Assembly: GCF_017873855.1 (NCBI RefSeq)
Contig: NZ_JAGGKR010000001.1
Location: 62,001 to 126,000 of the forward strand
Direction of reading: 5' to 3'
Source of the DNA: Methanolinea mesophila
GTDB lineage: Archaea; Halobacteriota; Methanomicrobia; Methanomicrobiales; Methanospirillaceae
DNA length: 64,000 nt
Shown piece by piece: positions 3,115 to 20,510 of the stretch. Positions within the stretch are counted from its first letter, which is position 1. Every line of letters begins with the position of its first letter. The notes beneath the pieces were generated by a model, which was not told the origin of the DNA, ran no database searches, and was given only the letters and a program-made list of their open reading frames with translations. A program made the position numbers and the translations under genes.

Positions 3115-3792
3115 CTAGGGCGGGATCGCGCCGCTCCCGCCCCCGGACCCGGTCTTGACCATATTTTTCTTCCGGTTCAGCAATTTTTTGACTTTTTTCA
3201 ACCGGTAGAGATCTTCCCGTTCCCGTTCTTCGATGGTGATCTTAATATATTTCGCCTGTCGCCTGAGTTCAGGGATCAATACCTGCTCGAGCGCGTTTAC
3301 CCTGCGACGATTCATCTGGATCTCTTCTCCGAGCCGTCGGAGAGCCGTTTCGGTCTCTGCGAGCCCTATGATAAGATCAAGCTCTGCTTCGTACTTCTCC
3401 GCAGTTTCGTCGATCCGCCCGCTTACTCCGAGGATACTATAGCCGCGCTGCAGCGAACCGATCGAAACCCGTTTTTTTTCGATGATCGGGACCGGGACCC
3501 CCATGATATTCTTCCCTGATATGTCGAGTACGATAGAACGACGGGTGGCGAAAGAGGCCGATTTCAGGGTGACCGGATCATCGACGGCCTGTGCAGTGAG
3601 CAGGGAACGCTGGGCGCTCTCTGCGATAATCTCCAGTTCCTCCCGGGAGCGGGACACCGTGTTCATGATTTGGAAAAATTCCCGTATCAGTGCGTCCATT
3701 TTTTCGCGGAGGAGGTCCCTCCCCTGTTCTGCGAGTCGGATTTGGGCCCTTTTTTTGATGAGTTCCATCCGGGTGGGATTTACCTGCTCCAT
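3115..3792 (-). CDS. atpD: A-type ATP synthase subunit D, operon 1
   Basis: Subunit D is the long coiled-coil central stalk that turns inside the A3B3 head and connects to F and C. The 225-residue product has the typical N-terminal helix (NPTRMELIKKRAQIRLAEQG) and C-terminal helix (EREREDLYRLKKVKKLLNRK) that pair into the shaft, with a less regular middle. The tail is Gly-rich (TGSGGGSGAIPP). It is the last gene of operon 1, one base after atpB. Unlike operon 2, no small membrane protein gene follows it. Confidence 0.95.
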   Translation of the reverse strand: MEQVNPTRMELIKKRAQIRLAEQGRDLLREKMDALIREFFQIMNTVSRSREELEIIAESAQRSLLTAQAVDDPVTLKSASFATRRSIVLDISGKNIMGVPVPIIEKKRVSIGSLQRGYSILGVSGRIDETAEKYEAELDLIIGLAETETALRRLGEEIQMNRRRVNALEQVLIPELRRQAKYIKITIEEREREDLYRLKKVKKLLNRKKNMVKTGSGGGSGAIPP

Positions 3793-3793
3793 T

Positions 3794-5194
3794 CTATTCT
3801 CCCGCCTTTAAAAGCGGATGATACTTCCGGATATACTCTTTCTTTATCCGCTTCAGCTCGTCTTCCGGAAGGCTTGCCATGAGGTCCCACCCGATCCCGA
3901 GCGTCTCCTCTATCGACCGGTTCTGATCCCCCTGGGTGATGAATTTTTTCTCGAATTCATCTGCAAACGAAAGATACACCTTGTCCAGTTCGGTAAGTGC
4001 CTCCTCTCCCACTATCGCCACAAGTCTCCGCAGATCGCGCCCGTACGCATACGACGCGTAGAGCTGGTCCGCCACATTCCTGTGGTCTTCCCTCGTTTTT
4101 TCCGGCCCGATTCCGAGGTTCATGAGGCGTGAAAGGCAGGGAAGCACGTCGATTGGCGGGTCCGCCCCTCTCCGGTAGAGATCTCTTGAAAGCACGATCT
4201 GGCCTTCGGTGATGTACCCCGTAAGGTCGGGCACCGGGTGGGTGATGTCGTCGTCCGGCATGGTGAGGATGGGGATTTGCGTTATAGATCCGGATTTTCC
4301 TGTGATTCTTCCCGCCCGTTCATAAATCGAGGCAAGATCGGTATACATGTATCCCGGGTATCCCCTGCGCCCGGGGACCTCTTCCCGGGCGGTCGAAATT
4401 TCCCGCAATGCTTCACAATAATTTGTCATGTCCGTGAGAATGACGAGGACGTGAAGATTGTGGGTGTATGCCAGGAACTCGGCGGTGGACAGGGCACACC
4501 TCGGTGTCGCCACCCGTTCGATTGTAGGATCATCCGCGAGATTTAAGAAGAACACGACTCTTTCGAGGGCTCCTGTCCTTTCGAAGTCGTTCATGAAAAA
4601 CGAGGCTTCCTTATGGGTAATGCCCATGGCCACAAAAACCACGGCAAATGCCTCTTCCGCACCCGGGACACGTGCCTGACGGGCAATCTGGGCCGCGAGC
4701 TTGTTCGCCGGAAGACCGGATCCCGAGAAGATGGGGAGTTTCTGACCGCGCACGAGGGTATTCAGACCATCGATCGCCGACATCCCGGTCTGGATAAAAT
4801 CTGCGGGTTTATCGCGGGAATAGGGATTGATGGGTGTTCCCGATATATCCACGGAGTCCTCCGGGATGATCTCGGGACCTCCGTCCCGCGGTTTGCCTAC
4901 TCCGGTGAAAACCCGCCCCAGCATGTCCATCGATACATCGATGGCCGGCGCCTGACCGGTGAATCTCACCGAAGTGGTATCGCTGTCCACGCCGCTCGTC
5001 CCTTCGTAGACCTGCACCACCGCAAGGTCGTGCGAAATATCCAGGACCTGCCCGTTGCGTTCCTCTCCGCTTGGAAGCGTGATTCTTGCGGTTTCCCCGA
5101 ACGATACACCCATCGGGCGTTCCACGAATATGAGCGGGCCGGAGACGTAGCTGACCGTCCGGAACTCGCGGTCGAGAAGGGAAGGGACGCTCAT
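3794..5194 (-). CDS. atpB: A-type ATP synthase subunit B, operon 1
   Basis: Subunit B is the non-catalytic, regulatory nucleotide-binding partner of subunit A in the A3B3 hexamer. The 466-residue protein has the usual beta-barrel N-terminus, the ATPase core and helical C-terminus, and lacks a Walker A lysine loop as expected. In place of the loop it has [20 protein letters not shown]; the operon 2 copy reads [20 protein letters not shown]. The arginine-containing [18 protein letters not shown] stretch of the family is intact. Its start overlaps the end of atpA by four bases. Confidence 0.97.
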
Positions 5195-6930
5195 TCTTCC
5201 ACCTCCAGCGCCTCGATTTTATTCCGGATTTCATCCACGAACCCCTTGATCTGTTCCGCTGACTCGACTTCTTTCATCCGGGCAATTCCGGATTTTAGCG
5301 GGAGAGCCGAGACCTGGCGAAGGTTCACACCACGGCCCATGGCATCACTCACCGCCTCTTCGTATGCCAGGATGGCGGAAAGCATCCAGTACTGCTTTTC
5401 GAGGCGGCAGAAAGAATCGACATCACTATAGGCGCTCTGCTGGAGGAAATCTTCCCGGATCATGCGGGTCACTTCCAGTATTGCCTTCTCGCTCTCGGGC
5501 AGCGCGTCGGGGCCCACCAGCTGGACTATTTCCTGTAGTTCCACCTCCTTCTGTAGGAGGTACATCGTCCTGTCACGGAGCGCTTTCCAGTCGGAAGCAA
5601 CATTCTCCCTGTACCAGGGTTCGATGCTGTCGAGATACAGGGAGTAACTTTTAATCCAGTTCACCGAGGGGAAATGCCTGCGGTACGCCAGGTTGGTGTC
5701 GAGCGCCCAGAACGTGCCGGCAATCCTGAGAGTGTTCTGGGTAATCGGCTCGGAGAAGTCGCCGCCGGGAGGGGAGACCGCACCAACGATGGTGACCGAT
5801 CCTACCCGCTCTCCTTTCCCGAGGCATTCCACCCGCCCGGCTCTTTCATAGAATGCCGCAAGACGGGTGGCCAGATAGGCGGGGTACCCTTCCTCTCCCG
5901 GCATCTCTTCGAGTCTTCCAGAGACTTCCCTGAGCGCTTCTCCCCACCGGGAGGTCGAATCTGCCATGAGCGCCACGTCGTAGCCCATGTCCCGGTAATA
6001 TTCCGCCATGGTGATGCCGGTATATATCGATGCTTCCCTTGCTGCCACCGGCATGTTCGAGGTATTCGCGACAAGGACCGTCCGTTCCATCAGGGGAAGC
6101 CCGGTCCGGGGATCCACGAGCTCGGGGAACTCGGTCAGCACGTCGGTCATCTCGTTTCCCCGTTCACCACACCCGATATATACTACCACCTGCGAGTCAG
6201 CCCATTTCGCGAGAGTCTGCTCTGATACGGTTTTCCCGGTACCGAACCCGCCAGGGATCATCGCAGTCCCGCCCTTTGTGAGAGGGAACAGGAAGTCGAA
6301 TATTCTTTGGCCTGTAAGGAGGGGCGAAGTGGGATTCATCTTTCTTCTGTAGGGCCTTCCTTTCCTGACCGGCCAGAGTTGCATCATGGAAATGGTGGTA
6401 CCCCCCTCCAGGCTGCACACGGTGTCGGCGACAGTAAATTTCCCCTCGTGGATCTCGGCCACTTTTCCCGAAATCCCGGGAGGTACGAGTATCCTGTGGA
6501 CCACGTGGAACTCCTGGACCGTGCCGATGATATCTCCTCCCGATACTTCGTCACCGGTTTTTACGGAGGGAACGAACTGCCATTGGACGCTCCTGTCAAG
6601 ACCCGGGACCGAAATCCCTTTTGAAATGAAACTCCCGCTGGCTTTTGCAAGTACGGGTAACGGTCTTTGCACCCCGTCATAGATCGAGGAAATGAGCCCC
6701 GGCCCCAGTTCGACGGAGAGAGGTTGTCCTGTATTTTCCACGGGTTCGCCGATGGACAGACCCGTTGAGTCCTCGTATACCTGGACTACGGCCATATCCC
6801 GCTCAAGACGAATGATCTCTCCTGAAAGGGAGTATTTTCCCACTTTCACCACGTCATACATCTTCGAGCCCGTCATGCCTCCGGCAATCACTACAGGCCC
6901 TGATATCCTCGAAATTTTTCCCTGAATCAT
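5191..6930 (-). CDS. atpA: A-type ATP synthase catalytic subunit A, operon 1 (atypical P-loop)
   Basis: Subunit A carries the catalytic nucleotide sites of the A1 head and hydrolyses or makes ATP. The 579-residue protein has the N-terminal barrel, the A-type-specific inserted domain (about residues 110-190), the core with a P-loop at about 227-234, the [10 protein letters not shown] motif with its catalytic Glu, and a helical C-terminus. The P-loop reads GGFGTGKT where archaeal A subunits usually read GPFGSGKT, as the operon 2 copy does. The Lys and Thr are kept, so activity is expected. It is two bases after atpF and overlaps atpB. Confidence 0.97.
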
Positions 6931-6931
6931 T

Positions 6932-7252
6932 TCAGTGCCTCAATACCACGTTATACCCGATTGCCCTCCGCAGGAGGCGTTCGATATAGCCCGGTCCCGC
7001 TCCCCCCCGGAAATGCACGGGAATCGGCAGAATTATCGGCCTATACGTGCGTTCAATGCGTGCAATCAGTTTTTCATCGAGCAAATCGATAAACTCCTCG
7101 TTTACCGCGATTATCCCCGTATCGTCCCGCAGGAGCAGGGGCGGGATGATCTTCCGTGCCTCCTGGGGATCGGCAGCTTCCATGACTTCAACCCCGGTGA
7201 GCCGGAAGCCCGGGGCGGTATCCGGATCGGTGACTACAATGAATTTATACAT
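6932..7252 (-). CDS. atpF: A-type ATP synthase subunit F, operon 1
   Basis: Subunit F is a small Rossmann-like stalk protein that binds subunit D and the B subunits and can modulate activity. The 106-residue product begins [20 protein letters not shown], the normal N-terminus of the family. An upstream ATG at 7270 is in frame, but the start at 7252 is preceded by GGAGACACTCC and aligns with the operon 2 copy. It overlaps the end of atpC by eight bases and ends one base before atpA. Confidence 0.92.
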
Positions 7253-8294
7253 ACAGGAGTGTCTCCTCAACGTCTGCGTCCGATATCATGGCGGTTTTAA
7301 ACCTGCCGATAATCCGGATGTTCGTCACCTCGTTCTGTTTTTCAAACAGATACCCGATACAGAGCACACCTCCGAGAGGCTCGCTGTGATAGAGCGATGC
7401 CCCCTTGCGGACAAGATACCGGTCCATTTCTTTTTCGATAAGTGAGATTTCCGCGTTTGCAAGAGACTGAAGCGGCAGTGAGACCAGGAATTCATAGGAT
7501 GTTCCCTGGAGAACCGAGACAGCCTCCCCGATAGAGGGGGCGGCGACAAGTTTCCGGTACAGCTTGAGTGGCAGGTGGGTCCCGCCGGGAAGGAAATACT
7601 GGGCCGATTCCTCCGGGGAAATCCCTTCACGATTCATTTTTAACGCCGTCTTGATGTTGACGCTGTCAATCTCAGCCGCAAGGATCGATTGCATCAGCTT
7701 GTGATCCGCGGTCTTCCCTGTGAGGGTCTTTTTGGAGTTTTCATAGTGGAACAGATCCAGCGCATACTCCAGAGATGAGAGGCTGCCCGTTTCCGCGTAC
7801 TCCTTCATATGTGCGGTCAGCGGGCGGGTGTAGATCACATCCCATGTTGCGAGCAGATCCACGACACCCCGTACATCGCCCTGTTTTAACAGCTCATTGA
7901 GAAGGGCTGACGAGATCGTACCGGCTGGAATCAGGCATTCGGTGATCTCCTCCGGAGAGATATGGATGTGAATGCCCCTTATGATCGTTTTGAGATTGTG
8001 GATATCGTAGCGTGAAACGAAGATTCGCACGAAAATTTCGGCGTCACTGCCGGCGAGAAGGCCCTGGACTTTCCTGAATGTTGTTGCGAGATTTTTGCGC
8101 AGGGCATACTCTATTCCGCGGATTCCAGGATAAAGGACGGTACCTTCTTCGATTTCGGCCTTATAAGGAGTTTTTCCAAGCTCGGTCACCATCGCGGGGA
8201 TATCCGGCTGCACCAGAAGTGCTTCGTAGCCTTTCCGGTCCAGAAGACGGCTGTGCATTCCTCTAATCCTGGCGTTGGCGTATCCGTAATCCAT
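7245..8294 (-). CDS. atpC: A-type ATP synthase subunit C, operon 1
   Basis: Subunit C (the V-type d homologue) is the funnel-shaped socket joining the central stalk to the proteolipid ring. The 349-residue, mostly helical protein has the standard peripheral form: it starts directly with YGYANARIRGMHSRLLDRKG and has no membrane segment. Three internal V1-d-like helical units can be made out. It lies one base after atpE and overlaps atpF. The operon 2 copy has 48 extra residues before the equivalent of this start. Confidence 0.94.
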   Translation of the reverse strand: MDYGYANARIRGMHSRLLDRKGYEALLVQPDIPAMVTELGKTPYKAEIEEGTVLYPGIRGIEYALRKNLATTFRKVQGLLAGSDAEIFVRIFVSRYDIHNLKTIIRGIHIHISPEEITECLIPAGTISSALLNELLKQGDVRGVVDLLATWDVIYTRPLTAHMKEYAETGSLSSLEYALDLFHYENSKKTLTGKTADHKLMQSILAAEIDSVNIKTALKMNREGISPEESAQYFLPGGTHLPLKLYRKLVAAPSIGEAVSVLQGTSYEFLVSLPLQSLANAEISLIEKEMDRYLVRKGASLYHSEPLGGVLCIGYLFEKQNEVTNIRIIGRFKTAMISDADVEETLLYV

Positions 8295-8295
8295 A

Positions 8296-8880
8296 TCATT
8301 CTCCGAAGAGGATCCGGCAAACCTCCTTGTTATATACGTTCCGGGCCTTGTTCAGTCGTGATTCCAGGGTATTGTAAACCCTGATCCTTCCATCAGCAGA
8401 CGAGACTTCAACCCCCCCTGCGGTAACCAGGTCGGGGACCAGCTCTGCAGTGACAGATTTCCCTTTCAGGATGCCAATGGCGAGATCCTGGTCCCTTGGA
8501 TCGATATGAACCCTGATCTCCATTGCTTCGATCGCCGCAAGGGACTCTGTGAGGAGTTGTGCGAACTGCTCCCCGTAGGCGGGATCGGTTCTCGCTCTGG
8601 CGAGTCTTTCTCCGGCTTTCCGGAACGCCTCGTCCACGAGGCGCTCTTTTTCTGTCGTGGTAATAACATTCTCCTCGCCCCGGATCTGGTAAAGGGTCCG
8701 GTTCCTTTGATCTCTCGCCTCCGAATGTGCCTCATCCAGGAGGGATTGATGCACATAATCGGCTTTTTCAGATGATTCCCGGGTGATCTCCTCGACCCTG
8801 GCATTCGTTTCCGACCGGATCTCTGAGATCTTTTCCTCGGCACTCTCTTCCATGGACCGGACAAGGTCATTGTATGCCAT
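8296..8880 (-). CDS. atpE: A-type ATP synthase subunit E, operon 1
   Basis: Subunit E pairs with H to form the peripheral stalks that hold the A3B3 head against the membrane subunit I. The 194-residue protein has a long charged N-terminal helix (about residues 1-100, rich in Glu, Arg and Ala) and a compact C-terminal domain with VTAGGVEVSSADGRIRVYNT, the family's hallmark near the end. It ends one base before atpC. A 98-base spacer separates it from atpK with no clear signal beyond GAGAGGGGTGA ahead of the start. Confidence 0.93.
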   Translation of the reverse strand: MAYNDLVRSMEESAEEKISEIRSETNARVEEITRESSEKADYVHQSLLDEAHSEARDQRNRTLYQIRGEENVITTTEKERLVDEAFRKAGERLARARTDPAYGEQFAQLLTESLAAIEAMEIRVHIDPRDQDLAIGILKGKSVTAELVPDLVTAGGVEVSSADGRIRVYNTLESRLNKARNVYNKEVCRILFGE

Positions 8881-8978
8881 ACTCGATCGCGTCCGCTGTC
8901 ACCCCTCTCTTACTCGCAAAAACTATTCTATGGGCCAAAACTGGCGACATTTCACCACCCGGAACAAATCCGGTCAGG

Positions 8979-9197
8979 TTACTGCACCATTATGATGATC
9001 ATTGAAGCCACCACGAACCCGAGAATGACCAGGGTTTCGGGGATTGCTTCCAGGACAATAATGGTCCCTGACGTTTCCGGCCTCTCTGCAATTGTTCCTG
9101 CACCGGCCGAACCGATTCTCGACTGTGCCCAGGCAGTACCAATTGCTCCGCCAGCAAATGCGATAGCGGCCCCGATAGGGACTTCCCAACCGACCAT
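8979..9197 (-). CDS. atpK: A-type ATP synthase proteolipid subunit K, single hairpin, operon 1
   Basis: Subunit K monomers assemble into the rotor ring that carries H+ or Na+. The 72-residue product has two membrane helices joined by a polar AERPE loop at about residues 37-41. Helix 2 has the ion-binding carboxylate Glu54 in IPETLVILGF, and helix 1 has Gln25 at the position where Na+-binding c subunits have a ligand Gln. Whether it carries Na+, H+ or both cannot be told from this. The ribosome site GGAGAGGTG is strong, and the gene has its own TATA box, unlike atpK of operon 2. Confidence 0.95.
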   Translation of the reverse strand: MVGWEVPIGAAIAFAGGAIGTAWAQSRIGSAGAGTIAERPETSGTIIVLEAIPETLVILGFVVASMIIIMVQ

Positions 9198-9200
9198 TTA

Positions 9201-9209
9201 CACCTCTCC
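9201..9209 (-). promoter_or_regulatory. Strong ribosome binding site of atpK1
   Basis: The minus strand reads GGAGAGGTG four bases before the atpK start codon. It is among the best Shine-Dalgarno matches in this operon and fits a need for many copies of the proteolipid. Confidence 0.6.
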
Positions 9210-9232
9210 TATGCATAAGCATATTACTAATG

Positions 9233-9244
9233 TGATATAAAGAT
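9233..9244 (-). promoter_or_regulatory. Internal TATA box ahead of atpK1
   Basis: The minus strand reads ATCTTTATATCA, a good box A element, placing a transcript start near 9210 just before the atpK ribosome site. It sits in a 227-base, very AT-rich spacer between atpI and atpK, the only long gap inside either ATP synthase operon. It would let atpK-E-C-F-A-B-D be transcribed separately from H-I. Confidence 0.6.
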
Positions 9245-9401
9245 ATAGATGTTAGAAAATTGATTTTTTTCATAAAATCGAATTAAAAATATAACATTAA
9301 TTTCTCGTTCTTTTAATAAATAAATAATTCTGTATCCGGTAAAACATTTTGCGCGGTTTTTTTGAGTTTTGCTCTAATGAGTAAAATTAATTTTTAAATC
9401 C

Positions 9402-9436
9402 GGGGCAGAATAATTGTCTTTTTTTTATTCTGCCCC
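9402..9436 (-). terminator. Perfect 12-bp hairpin at the end of atpI1
   Basis: GGGGCAGAATAA at 9402-9413 is the exact inverse of TTATTCTGCCCC at 9425-9436, with an 11-base loop. The atpI stop codon lies inside the stem. On the minus-strand transcript the loop is A-rich; further AT-rich sequence follows. It could end part of the H-I transcripts or protect the 3' end of a processed one. Confidence 0.6.
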
Positions 9437-11347
9437 TTTATCTCTCCCGAAAGGCCGGTATGGTTCACCCCCTCCCTCGTAAAATTTCGAATAGAATTCC
9501 ACGATGTGAAGCCGGACCGAATGCAACGACGGGCTGAACATCGCGAGAATGACGTTGAGGGCATGAAGAAGCGTAGCGATAAGTATTCCAACCACTGCAA
9601 CGCCGAGTGCGCCCCCGAGCTCGTTCGCTACGAGGGCAAGAATAACGGATGCCATCCCTATGGCCATGATACGGGCATAGGAAAGGATGTTCCCCAGCGT
9701 GCTCATTACCTCTATCGCGCCCATCGTTCCACCCCCATAGATCAGGAGGGGGACGAATACCACCATGAGTGCCGCCGCAATAATTGTCCCGAATTCCGGG
9801 ATTATACCCATTAACGTAACCACCAGGATGAGAATGCCGGCAATTACGCCCATCATCCCGATCTTTTCAAGGAGGTGTTTCTTCTTTCTGCGGTATATCG
9901 CGTTGAGTGCGCCAAGCGAGAGGCCGATATAGATGTGGATAACGCCGATTACGATGGCCAGCACGAGAAGAGGTACTATCGCCTCCAGCCGGTTCCACGT
10001 GATCCCGAAAAGAGTAACAGGCTCTATCCAGCCCATTTCTTCGCCGAGGTTCCCGAAAAATTCCCCGTAGAGAAACCCGAAGAATATGGTGGGTATCGCA
10101 CTGATAAGAAGGATGTTTGCGAGCTGCTGGATCCATTCCATCATTTTGAACCTCCATTTCATCACCAGTGCGAATGCAATGATACAGAGCCCGTATCCGA
10201 TATCCCCCACGATCACTCCGAAAAAGAGAGGGAAAAAAATCGCCATGAGGGGGCTTGGATCGATCTCGACATACTTGGGCGGGCTGACCAGCTTCATGAA
10301 GAATTCGAATGGTTTGACCCACCGGGGATTATCATAGAACGTCGGGGCGTTCTCGAGTTCCTCTGCCGAGACATCCATTTCAGATACCACCACCCTGTTC
10401 CCGAAGGCATCCGAAAGGGCTGCTTTTGTCCTCTTTAAAAATTTTTTCGGGATCCATCCCCGGATTAGAATAGTGTTTTCCGACTGTCCGAAACGGTTCA
10501 GGGCACGTATCTCTTCGAGCCGGTCCTCGAGCAGCCTGGCCAGTGTCGATATTTCCAGGTATCTTCTGGAAGAGAGCGCGGCGAGGTCGCCGTCGATGGT
10601 CTTTATCTCAGTGTCGATCTCCTCCTTGTTTCGTGCTATCGCATTAAGGGCCTCGTCCAGGGGTATATTCGCATACTCGCGGGGAATTCTCACCTCGTTG
10701 ACATTCTGCGAGAACAGAAAGGAATGGACCTGTTCGGAGTATTTCTTGGAAAAAACGGTTATTGCCGCAATATTATTTTCGTCGAGTTCCGCGGTGATGA
10801 ATTCAAACTGGTTGTGGGTAATCGCCTTCAGCTGCGGACGAACGAGGTCGAGAATTTCGTGGAATTCCTTCTGGATAAGCAGGACCGTGACTTCAAACCC
10901 CTCTAAAAGAGGGACCTGGCTTTCAATGGGCTGGATTTTTCCCATTATTCTTGCATAGTTGTCGAGTGTGGTACGACGAAGCTCAAGATCCGACCTTCGG
11001 TTGGCAAGCTCTCTGGTATGACTCTCAAGGTTGGAGATCACCTGATATGCCCGCGCAATGAGGGCGCTCGTAGAGAGTTTCTGGAGCGATTCCTCACAAT
11101 CTCCCATTTTTACGGGTTCTTCGTCGGATACAGGCAGGATGTGGGCGATTCCATGGAGTTTCACCAGGAGGGCAGATATTTCTTCTTCTTTGGGAACTTC
11201 CATCCTGGTAAAAATCTCCTGTCCATTCTCCAGAATGCCCGAGATATCCTGAAGATGTATCGTACCCTCCCGGTACAGCACGTCGATTATCTCCTGGTAA
11301 TCCCTTCTCGGGCCCACTACCAGGACGCTCTTCATCTTCTGAAGCAT
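9425..11347 (-). CDS. atpI: A-type ATP synthase membrane subunit I (a subunit), operon 1
   Basis: Subunit I is the stator that provides the ion half-channels next to the K ring. The 640-residue protein has a soluble, coiled-coil N-terminal half (about 1-330) that binds the peripheral stalks and a C-terminal half with about seven or eight membrane helices starting near FEFFMKLVSPPKYVEIDPSP. LSYARIMAIGMASVILALVA near the end contains the conserved membrane Arg needed to release the ion from the rotor Glu. It begins one base after atpH. A spacer with a hairpin and new promoter follows it. Confidence 0.95.
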   Translation of the reverse strand: MLQKMKSVLVVGPRRDYQEIIDVLYREGTIHLQDISGILENGQEIFTRMEVPKEEEISALLVKLHGIAHILPVSDEEPVKMGDCEESLQKLSTSALIARAYQVISNLESHTRELANRRSDLELRRTTLDNYARIMGKIQPIESQVPLLEGFEVTVLLIQKEFHEILDLVRPQLKAITHNQFEFITAELDENNIAAITVFSKKYSEQVHSFLFSQNVNEVRIPREYANIPLDEALNAIARNKEEIDTEIKTIDGDLAALSSRRYLEISTLARLLEDRLEEIRALNRFGQSENTILIRGWIPKKFLKRTKAALSDAFGNRVVVSEMDVSAEELENAPTFYDNPRWVKPFEFFMKLVSPPKYVEIDPSPLMAIFFPLFFGVIVGDIGYGLCIIAFALVMKWRFKMMEWIQQLANILLISAIPTIFFGFLYGEFFGNLGEEMGWIEPVTLFGITWNRLEAIVPLLVLAIVIGVIHIYIGLSLGALNAIYRRKKKHLLEKIGMMGVIAGILILVVTLMGIIPEFGTIIAAALMVVFVPLLIYGGGTMGAIEVMSTLGNILSYARIMAIGMASVILALVANELGGALGVAVVGILIATLLHALNVILAMFSPSLHSVRLHIVEFYSKFYEGGGEPYRPFGRDKGAE

Positions 11348-11348
11348 A

Positions 11349-11672
11349 TCACGAAGAACCTGCAGTGGCGTTTACAATGAAATCCACGGCCCTGGGCATC
11401 ATTGCTTCCGCCTTTTCCTTTATCATTTCACGTTTGAGGCGACTATCAGAACGGATACCGGTAAGATCTCTTTCAAGAGACGCAGTTGCTTCCTGAATAA
11501 TCTTCGCGGATTCCTCTTTGGCCCGGTTTACTGCATTCTGGATACGTAATTCAGCCTCTTTTTTTGCGGTATCCAACGAGCTCTCCATTTCCCTGGCTAC
11601 AACATCGCACCTCGTCTTGAGCTCCTGCTCTTTTCGCTGCACGATCTCCAGTAAAGATCCTTCATCCTCCAT
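11349..11672 (-). CDS. atpH: A-type ATP synthase subunit H, operon 1
   Basis: Subunit H is the right-handed coiled-coil partner of E in the peripheral stalk. The 107-residue product is almost entirely a charged helix rich in Glu, Lys, Arg and Ala (for example RKEQELKTRCDVVAREMESS). It ends in a small hydrophobic tail. It follows the 61-codon ORF by nine bases and precedes atpI by one base. Confidence 0.88.
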   Translation of the reverse strand: MEDEGSLLEIVQRKEQELKTRCDVVAREMESSLDTAKKEAELRIQNAVNRAKEESAKIIQEATASLERDLTGIRSDSRLKREMIKEKAEAMMPRAVDFIVNATAGSS

Positions 11673-11867: not shown

Positions 11868-11910
11868 ATTCTCTCCGACTTCTGCGTCGTCGGATGGATG
11901 GTAGTCATAT

Positions 11911-11920
11911 TTAATATAAA
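11911..11920 (-). promoter_or_regulatory. TATA box of ATP synthase operon 1
   Basis: The minus strand reads TTTATATTAA within a longer AT-rich run. It would start transcripts near 11886, about 20 bases before the GTG of the small leading ORF. Confidence 0.6.
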
Positions 11921-12059
11921 TAAATTACCTATACGGAAGATCGTTCAGTATGGCGCTGCATTGCATTCTCAGGCAAATGATACCGCAGCTGCCCGGATAT
12001 TCTTCCTGCCCGGGAGGTCACACCTCACAACCCGGACCCGTATCAGGGGGGAGATATCC

Positions 12060-12965
12060 GTGAATTCGGGAATCTTTTCAAAGATCCTCTTCCCTACGGA
12101 TTTTTCAGAGCATGCGAAGAGGACGCTGGACTGTATTGCGGGGCTTCCCGGAATCAGCGAGGTTGTGCTGATCCATGTCGTCGAGGCCAAAAGAATCGTC
12201 CGCGCGGCGTGGGGGTCCGAGGCGATGACATCCTCCGCGAACCGTAACCTCTACGAGGAGTGTGAGTACCTGAAAAACCAGGGAATCACTGTCCAGTCTA
12301 TACTGAGAAAGATCCGAAGCGGGTCGGTCGGTGCTGCGATAGTCGGTGAGGCTCTGGAATTAAAACCAAGCATAATCCTCATCGGGGCGCGGGGGGAAAG
12401 TATCGCCACCGGGGTTTTGATGGGAAGCGTGTCGTCCCACGTCCTGCGCTATTCCCCCGTTCACGTCCTTATCATGAAATATCGTGTAGTCGAAGCTCTT
12501 TCCGGCCCGGCATTCGAGAAATACTGCCCCAGGGTCCTTTCGCGCGTTCTCTGCCCGACAGACTTCTCGCCACATTCTTCCGTGGCGCTGAACGATATCG
12601 CACGGATTCCCGGGATTGGAGAGATCCGGATACTCCATGTGGTCATTTCAGAAGAAGATTCCAGTGAACTGCAGGAGAAACTGAATGCCGCGGAACATGA
12701 ACTCTCGAAAATCGTGGCTTCCCTCGCCCGGTCGGGAATTTCCTGCAATAGCAGCGTGCGCGTGGGGGATCCTGCCTCTGAAATATCACGCATGGCGGAT
12801 GAGGAAGATGTCTCCCTTATCGGGCTTTCTTCGTACGGAAGGGGTTGGCGGGGAGGAGCTCTCTTAGGCGCCGTGGTGTCGGAGGTTGCGAAGAATGCCG
12901 CCCGCCCGGTTCTCGTGCTGAGAACCCGCCTGCCCGCGGAACCGGGAATCATGGAATCACGCTGA
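12060..12965 (+). CDS. Tandem universal stress protein (two UspA domains)
   Basis: This soluble protein of about 301 residues has two Usp domains in tandem. Domain 1 begins with SKILFPTDFSEHAKRTLDCI and ends with the ATP-binding signature GARGESIATGVLMGSVSS (Gly-x2-Gly-x9-Gly-Ser). Domain 2 begins with VLCPTDFSPHSSVAL and ends with GLSSYGRGWRGGALLGAVVS, where the signature is less regular. The open frame begins at 11898, but GTG at 12060 follows an excellent GGGGGGAG site and gives the normal Usp N-terminus. It sits between the two ATP synthase operons, divergent from the first and converging on the end of the second, overlapping its last gene by nine bases. A role in sensing ATP or stress is family knowledge; a link to the ATP synthases is only positional. 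Confidence 0.88.
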   Translation: MNSGIFSKILFPTDFSEHAKRTLDCIAGLPGISEVVLIHVVEAKRIVRAAWGSEAMTSSANRNLYEECEYLKNQGITVQSILRKIRSGSVGAAIVGEALELKPSIILIGARGESIATGVLMGSVSSHVLRYSPVHVLIMKYRVVEALSGPAFEKYCPRVLSRVLCPTDFSPHSSVALNDIARIPGIGEIRILHVVISEEDSSELQEKLNAAEHELSKIVASLARSGISCNSSVRVGDPASEISRMADEEDVSLIGLSSYGRGWRGGALLGAVVSEVAKNAARPVLVLRTRLPAEPGIMESR

Positions 12966-19064: not shown

Positions 19065-20510
19065 TCACATGGTGAAAATCCCCAGGCCAAAGAGTATGAG
19101 AATCGCCACGAGCAGACCGAATATCGCGAACGTCTCCGACATAGCGGCGAACACCAGGCTCCTTCCCATTGCTTCGGATCTGCGGGCAGTGGCGGCAATT
19201 CCTGAGGCACAGGTGATTCCCTGACCTATTGCTGAAAATCCTCCGAGTCCTACGGCAATCCCCGCACCGATGGTGGCAATCCCGACGCCGAGCGTGGTGA
19301 TGAAATCATGGGTGATCATACCGGTGAACACCATTATCAGGATGGCGACGAGCAGTCCGTAAATCGCCTGTGTTTCACAGATCGCAGAGAAGACTACTCC
19401 CTTTCCAAACATTTCCGGTTTTTCTCCCGTTGCCGCGATTCCGGCGGATGCCGCAATCCCCTGCCCGATAGCCGACAGCCCCGCGAGGCCGACCGCGAGC
19501 CCGCCTGCGATCGCCGCAAATCCCACGGCAAGGGTAAGGGTCATGTCGCCGGAGATGAGGCCGGTGAAGGCCATCAAAAGGACCGCGACCAGAAGACCGT
19601 AAATCGCCTGGGTCTCGCAAATCGCTGCGAAAACAATCCCTTTTCCGAACATCTCCGGTTTTTCCGCGGTCGCGCCGATCCCTGCAGCGGCGGCGATCCC
19701 CTGCCCGATTGCAGAGAATCCCGCAAAACCCGTGGCAAGTCCGGCACCGATGCAGACCACTCCTGCCGCAAGGGTGGCGACGAGGTTTCCGGTAAACATC
19801 CCGGTGAACGACATGATCAGGATCGCTGCCAAAAGGCCGTAAATCGCCTGGGTCTCACAGATCGCGGCAAATACTACTCCTTTTCCGAACAGTTCCGGTT
19901 TTTCCGACGTGGCCGCGACACCCGCCGAAGCGGCAATCCCCTGCCCGATCGCCGATGTTCCCGAAAGACCGATGGACAACCCGCATCCTATCCCTGCAAG
20001 ACCCGCGGCCGTGGTCGCGATGTAGTTGCCGGAGAGCAGTCCGGAGAAGACGAGTATGAGAACGGCGACGAGCAACCCGTAAATCGCCTGAGTTTCGCAT
20101 ATAACCGAGAATACGACGCCTTTCCCGAAAGTCTCGGGGCGCTCGGCGGCCGTTGCGACGCCGGCTGATGACGCGATCCCCTGCCCGATCGATGAAAGTC
20201 CCGCCAATCCTACGGCAAGACCTGCTCCCACCGCGGAGAGCCCGATAGGAATGGGAATATCCCCCGCGGTACCTCCCAGGAAACCGCCCGAAAGCAGGAT
20301 GAGAACCGCAACGAGAAGCCCGTATATTGCCTGCGTCTGCGGAATTGCGGTAAAGATAAGCGCCATACCAAATTTTTCGGGTTTTTCCGCGGTCACTCCG
20401 GCCGACGCCGCTCCGGTGATACCTACCCCTATGCCTGCCCCTATCGCAGAGAATCCGACCGCAATTCCTGCCCCGATGGCAACAAGCGCGGTCCCTGGCC
20501 CGATTGGCAT
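19065..20510 (-). CDS. atpK: Six-hairpin fused proteolipid subunit K, operon 2
   Basis: This rotor-ring subunit is 481 residues long instead of about 70-80, and consists of six two-helix hairpins in one chain with a period of exactly 80 residues. The membrane Glu is at 139, 219, 299, 379 and 459 (ICETQAIYG in repeats 2-5, MSETFAIFG in repeat 6). Repeat 1 has IPQTQAIYG, with Gln58 in place of Glu, so it should not carry an ion. Helix 1 of repeats 2-6 has the Ser-x-Ile-Gly-Gln-Gly motif with Gln at 110, 190, 270, 350 and 430; repeat 1 lacks it. Repeats 2-5 thus contain Gln plus Glu-Thr-Gln, similar to the ligands that bind Na+ in the Enterococcus hirae K ring. Fused proteolipids are known in Methanothermobacter (two hairpins), Methanocaldococcus (three) and Methanopyrus (13). 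It starts at the atpI2 stop (TGATG). Confidence 0.96.
   Translation of the reverse strand: MPIGPGTALVAIGAGIAVGFSAIGAGIGVGITGAASAGVTAEKPEKFGMALIFTAIPQTQAIYGLLVAVLILLSGGFLGGTAGDIPIPIGLSAVGAGLAVGLAGLSSIGQGIASSAGVATAAERPETFGKGVVFSVICETQAIYGLLVAVLILVFSGLLSGNYIATTAAGLAGIGCGLSIGLSGTSAIGQGIAASAGVAATSEKPELFGKGVVFAAICETQAIYGLLAAILIMSFTGMFTGNLVATLAAGVVCIGAGLATGFAGFSAIGQGIAAAAGIGATAEKPEMFGKGIVFAAICETQAIYGLLVAVLLMAFTGLISGDMTLTLAVGFAAIAGGLAVGLAGLSAIGQGIAASAGIAATGEKPEMFGKGVVFSAICETQAIYGLLVAILIMVFTGMITHDFITTLGVGIATIGAGIAVGLGGFSAIGQGITCASGIAATARRSEAMGRSLVFAAMSETFAIFGLLVAILILFGLGIFTM
19065..20510 (-). repeat. 240-bp tandem coding repeat in atpK2, six copies
   Basis: On the plus strand the stretch GTAAATCGCCTG recurs at about 19357, 19597, 19837 and 20077, with a diverged copy near 20317 (GTATATTGCCTG) and one near 19117, always 240 bases apart. 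The period equals the 80-residue protein repeat, and copies 2-5 are the most alike, suggesting amplification of an internal unit or gene conversion. Confidence 0.9.

Follow-up and report, generated by a model that had tools for sequence, protein, structure and literature searches.

A candidate transcription-unit boundary between atpI1 and atpK1 in an A-type ATPase operon of Methanolinea mesophila

How a single operon yields some ten copies of the rotor subunit per stator unit of an ATPase is an old question. In the Escherichia coli atp operon, the excess of c subunit is obtained through the translation of atpE. In the methanogen Methanococcus maripaludis, internal transcription starts in 53% of operons and internal stops in 38% shape subunit ratios (PMC10450193). 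Three further papers indicate that the archaeal termination signal consists of U4-tracts and does not strictly need a hairpin (PMC8716108), that one Haloferax hairpin terminates 59% of transcripts (PMC7237163), and that the TATA box of a methanogen lies 19-22 nt from the transcription start (PMC5378194). Our literature search found no account of the atpI1-atpK1 spacer described here, which is a weak negative, as the search covered open-licence papers only.

Operon layout and the hairpin at the atpI1 stop

The window, i.e. the whole stretch of DNA that was analyzed, comprises 64 kb of the genome of Methanolinea mesophila, a member of the order Methanomicrobiales whose named relatives are Methanolinea and Methanoregulaceae MAGs. 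Coordinates and Pfam matches place two A-type ATPase operons on its minus strand, H1-I1-K1-E1-C1-F1-A1-B1-D1 (operon 1, 11672-3115) and H2-I2-K2-E2-C2-F2-A2-B2-D2 (operon 2, 22799-13130). The first gene of operon 1, atpH1 (11349-11672), was assigned by position and size; it has no Pfam match, and atpH2 has a single one below the cut-off. A TATA-like CTTTAAAA lies upstream of atpH1 and outside the gene at 11710-11703. The gene is followed by atpI1 (9425-11347; V_ATPase_I, PF01496), a 227-bp spacer of 75% A+T (9198-9424), atpK1 (8979-9197, ATG at 9197; PF00137), which encodes a one-hairpin rotor subunit of 72 aa, a 98-bp spacer (8881-8978), and the closely packed genes atpE1, C1, F1, A1, B1 and D1 (3115-8880; Pfam and coordinates). 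Operon 1 is tightly packed except for the 227 bp before and the 98 bp after K1. In operon 2, atpK2 (19065-20510) encodes 481 aa with six fused hairpins, recognized as six ATP-synt_C stretches, and its ATG overlaps the atpI2 stop as TGATG, confirming the gapless arrangement with a pre-fused K given in a preliminary description of the window. The window also holds, downstream of operon 1 on the same strand, a gene for a proton-antiporter-like protein (406-2355; Proton_antipo_M, NuoL type), and a double universal-stress-protein gene (11898-12965), which separates operons 1 and 2 and is encoded on the opposite strand.

At the junction stands a perfect 12-bp hairpin with an 11-nt loop over the atpI1 stop (9402-9436, minus strand), which was reported in the preliminary description and is borne out by sequence and folding. 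Its arms, GGGGCAGAATAA and TTATTCTGCCCC, occupy 9436-9425 and 9413-9402, and the stop codon TAA (9427-9425) forms the final three bases of the 5' arm. No other perfect stem of 10 bp or longer whose loop measures 3-14 nt exists in the 64 kb, for which first-order Markov resampling predicts 0.15 stems of at least 12 bp per window, and the 10-bp core of the hairpin with the same spacing occurs once in the whole genome. The fold z of the hairpin is -6.7 (56 nt), and the atpI1 stop has the lowest z (-3.2) among the 46 ORF stops tested in the window. However, only two of 56 other loci have z < -3 around the I1 stop (L061, -4.3; L051, -3.0), which rules out the hairpin as a conserved terminator; among the loci read, it is a feature of M. 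mesophila alone. The preliminary description had called this hairpin terminator-like; a role as the terminator is not supported, given its absence from relatives and the U-tract basis of archaeal termination (PMC8716108). By bacterial standards it is also no intrinsic terminator, since no U-run follows the stem on the coding strand, where CCCC is followed by GGATTTAAAAATT. It should be noted that sigma-70 and bacterial terminator scans are unsuited to archaea, and that they missed this hairpin, whose loop exceeds 8 nt. A known RNA family in the spacer was likewise rejected, because cmscan gave no match in six loci, and the two hits in the window stretch were both far under their gathering scores. 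The hairpin may help termination, may shield the H1-I1 message at its 3' end, or may be a product of chance. The terminating Haloferax hairpin (PMC7237163) makes a helping role possible.

U-tracts and a promoter-like block before atpK1

Between the hairpin and atpK1, five U-tracts (T4, T4, T5, T4 and T4, starting at 9386, 9344, 9289, 9277 and 9259) constitute a candidate archaeal-type terminator (9256-9386, minus strand), for which at least one tract of four or more U after the upstream gene is expected. Downstream of the I stop and ahead of the TATA position, a T-run of at least 4 is present in 23 of 24 loci of the promoter side vs 7 of 33 others, and control A-runs (12 of 24 vs 19 of 33) exhibit no such difference. 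T-runs as such are not rare in A+T-rich DNA; mononucleotide shuffles equal the longest run of the window in 37% of cases.

The U-tracts are followed by a TATA-like box, TTTATATC (9241-9234, minus strand), 44 bp before the atpK1 ATG, and by a Shine-Dalgarno sequence, AGGAGAGGTG (9210-9201, minus strand), both of which had been reported in the preliminary description. The TATA-start distance given in PMC5378194 would place the atpK1 transcription start near 9215-9210, within a predicted start region of 9210-9216 on the minus strand. Scored against the consensus YTTAWATA, the box matches at 7/8 positions, which by itself is not significant, since 8% of shuffles are as good; its credibility derives from the relatives. 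A TATA-like 8-mer (at least 7/8) is present 44-48 bp before the K ATG in 11 of 11 near loci, i.e. nine of clade A, including the window, and two of genus g16, and this is the fixed distance before the gene that characterizes an internal archaeal TATA promoter. Shuffles of the individual spacers reach the same match in 3-12%. Over clade A and g16, the majority-base fraction is 0.90 where the TATA block begins (first 10 bp) and 0.74-0.78 over the 20 bp that follow, compared with 0.45-0.54 in the region 60-20 bp before the block; spacer sequence outside the block is poorly conserved, and the fixed position spans loci whose I1 is only 53-67% identical to that of the window. At positions -52 to -39, the A+T content averages 0.81 in 40 promoter-side loci vs 0.56 in 33 other-side loci, although the loci share ancestry, such that counts are not independent and the A+T test values are overstated. 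The match is weaker, or no better than shuffles, in g13, g10/g6 and f2, and the 33 other-side loci have kept a spacer but lack a TATA block of this kind; hence a spacer is not always equivalent to a promoter. The TATA analyses omit L163 and L174 (start misplaced or upstream sequence too short), those of conservation and shuffles also L171 and L173 (start uncertain), and for L043 and L044 a K start 36 bp further upstream was used. As for the new promoter that had been proposed before atpK1, a promoter-like element kept in relatives and preceded by U-tracts supports it, whereas the TATA box of the window, taken alone, does not reach significance. That internal starts are ordinary in a methanogen (PMC10450193) counts for such an internal promoter.

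The junction in relatives and in the other ATPase operons

Searching 199 genomes of the order Methanomicrobiales for I1 (E <= 1e-90) yielded matches in 81, and 79 I1 ends were read. K1 lies directly downstream of I1 in 57 of these 79, and a spacer is always present (81-483 bp, median 153). In 20 of the other 22 loci K1 is located elsewhere in the genome, while the contig of L076 ends too early and K1 was not found in G196. These 20 genomes carry K1 elsewhere or on the other strand, mostly behind a conserved promoter-like block of its own: in G018 it is 6.8 kb away on the opposite strand, and in G006, which belongs to another genus (g7), it is divergent from I1. Some of the split-operon genomes are fragmented; G106, G098, G148 and G079 are single contigs. 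The split K genes of g5 share a block, ATACnTTAATATA...TAGGTTnTATCA...GGAGG, before K, and the sequence further upstream is unrelated. The break in operon 1 between I and K, which separates K1 from I1, is seen at L088, L100 and L156-L175, in genus g5 and once in g7.

In a tree of K and E, the groups without a TATA box (f3, f6, g12, contiguous g5 and g9b/g15b) form one clade with a support of 0.996. The tree omits L171, where no E was found, as well as L047, L075, L083, L111, L114, L163 and L174. L159 has a long branch, which probably reflects the choice of a wrong ORF as E, and the midpoint root adjoins it; the branching order on the other side was therefore not used. In a sister clade, 11 loci of genera g9 and g15 were aligned and L219 and L220 were also read (the others being L066, L067, L068, L069, L078, L080, L086, L089, L093, L094 and L096). 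The TATA-like block is absent from the I1-K1 spacers of all of them. In its place stand, by reading, an SD-like stretch ending in the start-stop pair ATGTAA (13 of 13) and, after it, a conserved hairpin, GCCGCC...GGCGGC, directly before the K1 ribosome site. The stem is 94% paired across the 11 aligned loci, and two loci have replaced both bases of one pair; the covariation support from this one compensatory pair is modest, and 3 of 500 shuffles were as good on score. The loop is not constant in length, and in L094 and L219 the difference is no multiple of three, which argues against a conserved peptide. When at most two mismatches were allowed, all occurrences of the pattern in the 15 genomes searched lay before K1; the K1 sites of L067 and L069 are reached at three mismatches, a level at which there are three other hits elsewhere. 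There was no Rfam match in the two sister-clade loci scanned (L066 and L067). Another diverged ATPase, with a two-hairpin K of ~150 aa, lies near operon 1 at L278, L279, L280 and L281, in genomes of the sister clade and of g12 and contiguous g5, and two one-hairpin K matches stand in tandem within 660 bp at L269 (G234).

The contrast drawn in the preliminary description would make it a rule that a short K needs a gap and a promoter and a fused K does not. Elsewhere in the same genome, however, there is a third, complete A-type ATPase operon (L155:274-8238). Its K3, a one-hairpin subunit of 82 aa, begins 3 bp behind the I3 stop, and a GGAGGA merges into this stop. Across 36 operon-3 loci, including that of this genome, the I-K gap is 1-5 bp in 31, 17-25 bp in three, and 82 and 179 bp in two, both of genus g2. 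Most one-hairpin K genes outside the order are also close behind I, with an operon-1-like exception in L256 (228 bp gap); this phylum sample comprised 42 loci, of which several with an upstream ORF not recognizably I were not used. The fused K2, with three or six hairpins, overlaps I2 in 18 of 18 operon-2 loci (in L017, the contig end cuts the K gene). Hence, half of the proposed contrast between short and fused K extends to other genomes, i.e. the fused K without a spacer, but the other half fails, because a one-hairpin K mostly has no spacer either in operon 3 or elsewhere in the phylum. The same loci led us to reject the idea that the spacer is caused by the number of hairpins in K. From the one-hairpin K of operon 3, which lacks a spacer, it follows that the spacer belongs to operon 1 and not to short K as such: it follows operon lineage rather than hairpin number. 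As a separate observation, hairpin 1 of the fused K2 has Q in place of the ion-binding E (PQT vs ET) in 12 of 17 fused K genes (window 19065-20510 plus 16 relatives), in both three- and six-hairpin forms, and in the remaining 5 the pattern applied found no match in hairpin 1; such a substitution would alter the number of ion sites per ring.

Readings of the junction and comparison with known systems

Judging from sequence, the atpI1|atpK1 junction is probably a transcription-unit boundary within operon 1, composed of a U-tract terminator and an internal promoter that gives K-headed transcripts. Polymerase arriving from atpH1-I1 would be partly stopped in the U-tract region (9386-9256), possibly with the aid of the hairpin in this species, and the TATA promoter at 9241-9234 would start new transcripts near 9215-9210 that carry atpK1 first and continue into atpE1-D1. 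Read-through together with the internal start would provide more RNA for the downstream genes, K first, than for H and I. The sequence elements, their constant position in relatives and the K genes located apart from I are observations, whereas promoter activity and partial termination are what we infer, as is their benefit, a larger supply of the one-hairpin K. A K supply as the purpose is plausible but unproved, because the proposed promoter would also feed E1-D1; for K to exceed E-D, something more would be required, for example the strong ribosome site or the spacer between K and E. The latter, considered as a structured terminator, shows only a mild folding excess (mean z -1.15 in clade A and g16 loci vs -0.34 in control windows inside E).

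It is also conceivable that the operon is a single transcript whose spacer is cleaved, with hairpins protecting the ends to leave a separate, stable K message. The strong hairpin exactly at the atpI1 stop, the conserved sister-clade hairpin immediately ahead of the K ribosome site, and the presence of spacers on both sides of K all suit such selective mRNA stabilization. Nevertheless, we regard it as rather unlikely, since it is the TATA position, and not the window hairpin, that is common to relatives, since K1 apart from I1 needs a promoter there, and since the K-E spacers are only mildly structured. Even less probable is the preliminary interpretation as a whole, with termination by the hairpin, restart by the promoter, and rotor stoichiometry as the purpose, with the fused K of operon 2 as a deliberate counterpart. 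The invariable overlap of K2 with I2 and the spacer found in all 57 operon-1 loci where K adjoins I are what it would predict, yet the near-gapless one-hairpin K of operon 3, in this genome as in others, and a hairpin specific to one species among the loci read are not. Finally, the rearrangement of the K boundary in g5 and g7 and the poor conservation outside the block might suggest that the spacer is a neutral leftover of rearrangement, with A+T-rich filler that is promoter-like by chance. We consider this very improbable, given that the TATA position is fixed and conservation peaks there across loci with such divergent I1 sequences, and that the bias to T-runs is strand-specific.

Beyond the transcription-unit boundary itself, we tentatively entertain a broader and doubtful possibility, namely that rotor-subunit supply is set at the I1|K1 spacer, as a conserved control point whose mechanism has changed in evolution: U-tracts plus a TATA promoter in the lineage of the window, a detached K in g5 and g7, and an RNA element in the sister clade. 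If true, one cell would set the stoichiometry of three ATPases through a promoter (operon 1), a fusion (operon 2) and a translation signal (operon 3). The interest lies in the three arrangements before K within one genome and the change of mechanism between lineages, rather than in the hairpin; by RNA-seq and proteomics, it could be compared directly in one cell how a promoter, a ribosome site and a fusion each affect subunit ratio.

The E. coli atp operon is similar in that an excess of c subunit comes from one operon, and its translation route resembles operon 3 here, not operon 1. The junction shares with bacterial intrinsic terminators a stable hairpin near a stop codon, but differs from them in the sequence that follows the stem on the coding strand and in having the 5' arm within the atpI1 coding sequence, so that ribosomes terminating there would open it. 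Like the archaeal U-tract/aCPSF1 terminators (PMC8716108), it has runs of four or more U, two of which (9289 and 9277) lie within 16 nt; unlike them, its tracts are spread over 130 nt with a hairpin ahead, and it is a candidate identified by sequence analysis. The ten-gene ATP synthase operon of M. maripaludis is reported to have no internal termination site (PMC10450193), whereas the I1-K1 spacer has the appearance of one. In its overall design, the spacer corresponds to the internal operon start and termination sites (ioTSS and ioTTS) of M. maripaludis (PMC10450193), as an in-operon spacer whose U-tracts and putative start site would generate unequal transcripts for the subunits of one complex.
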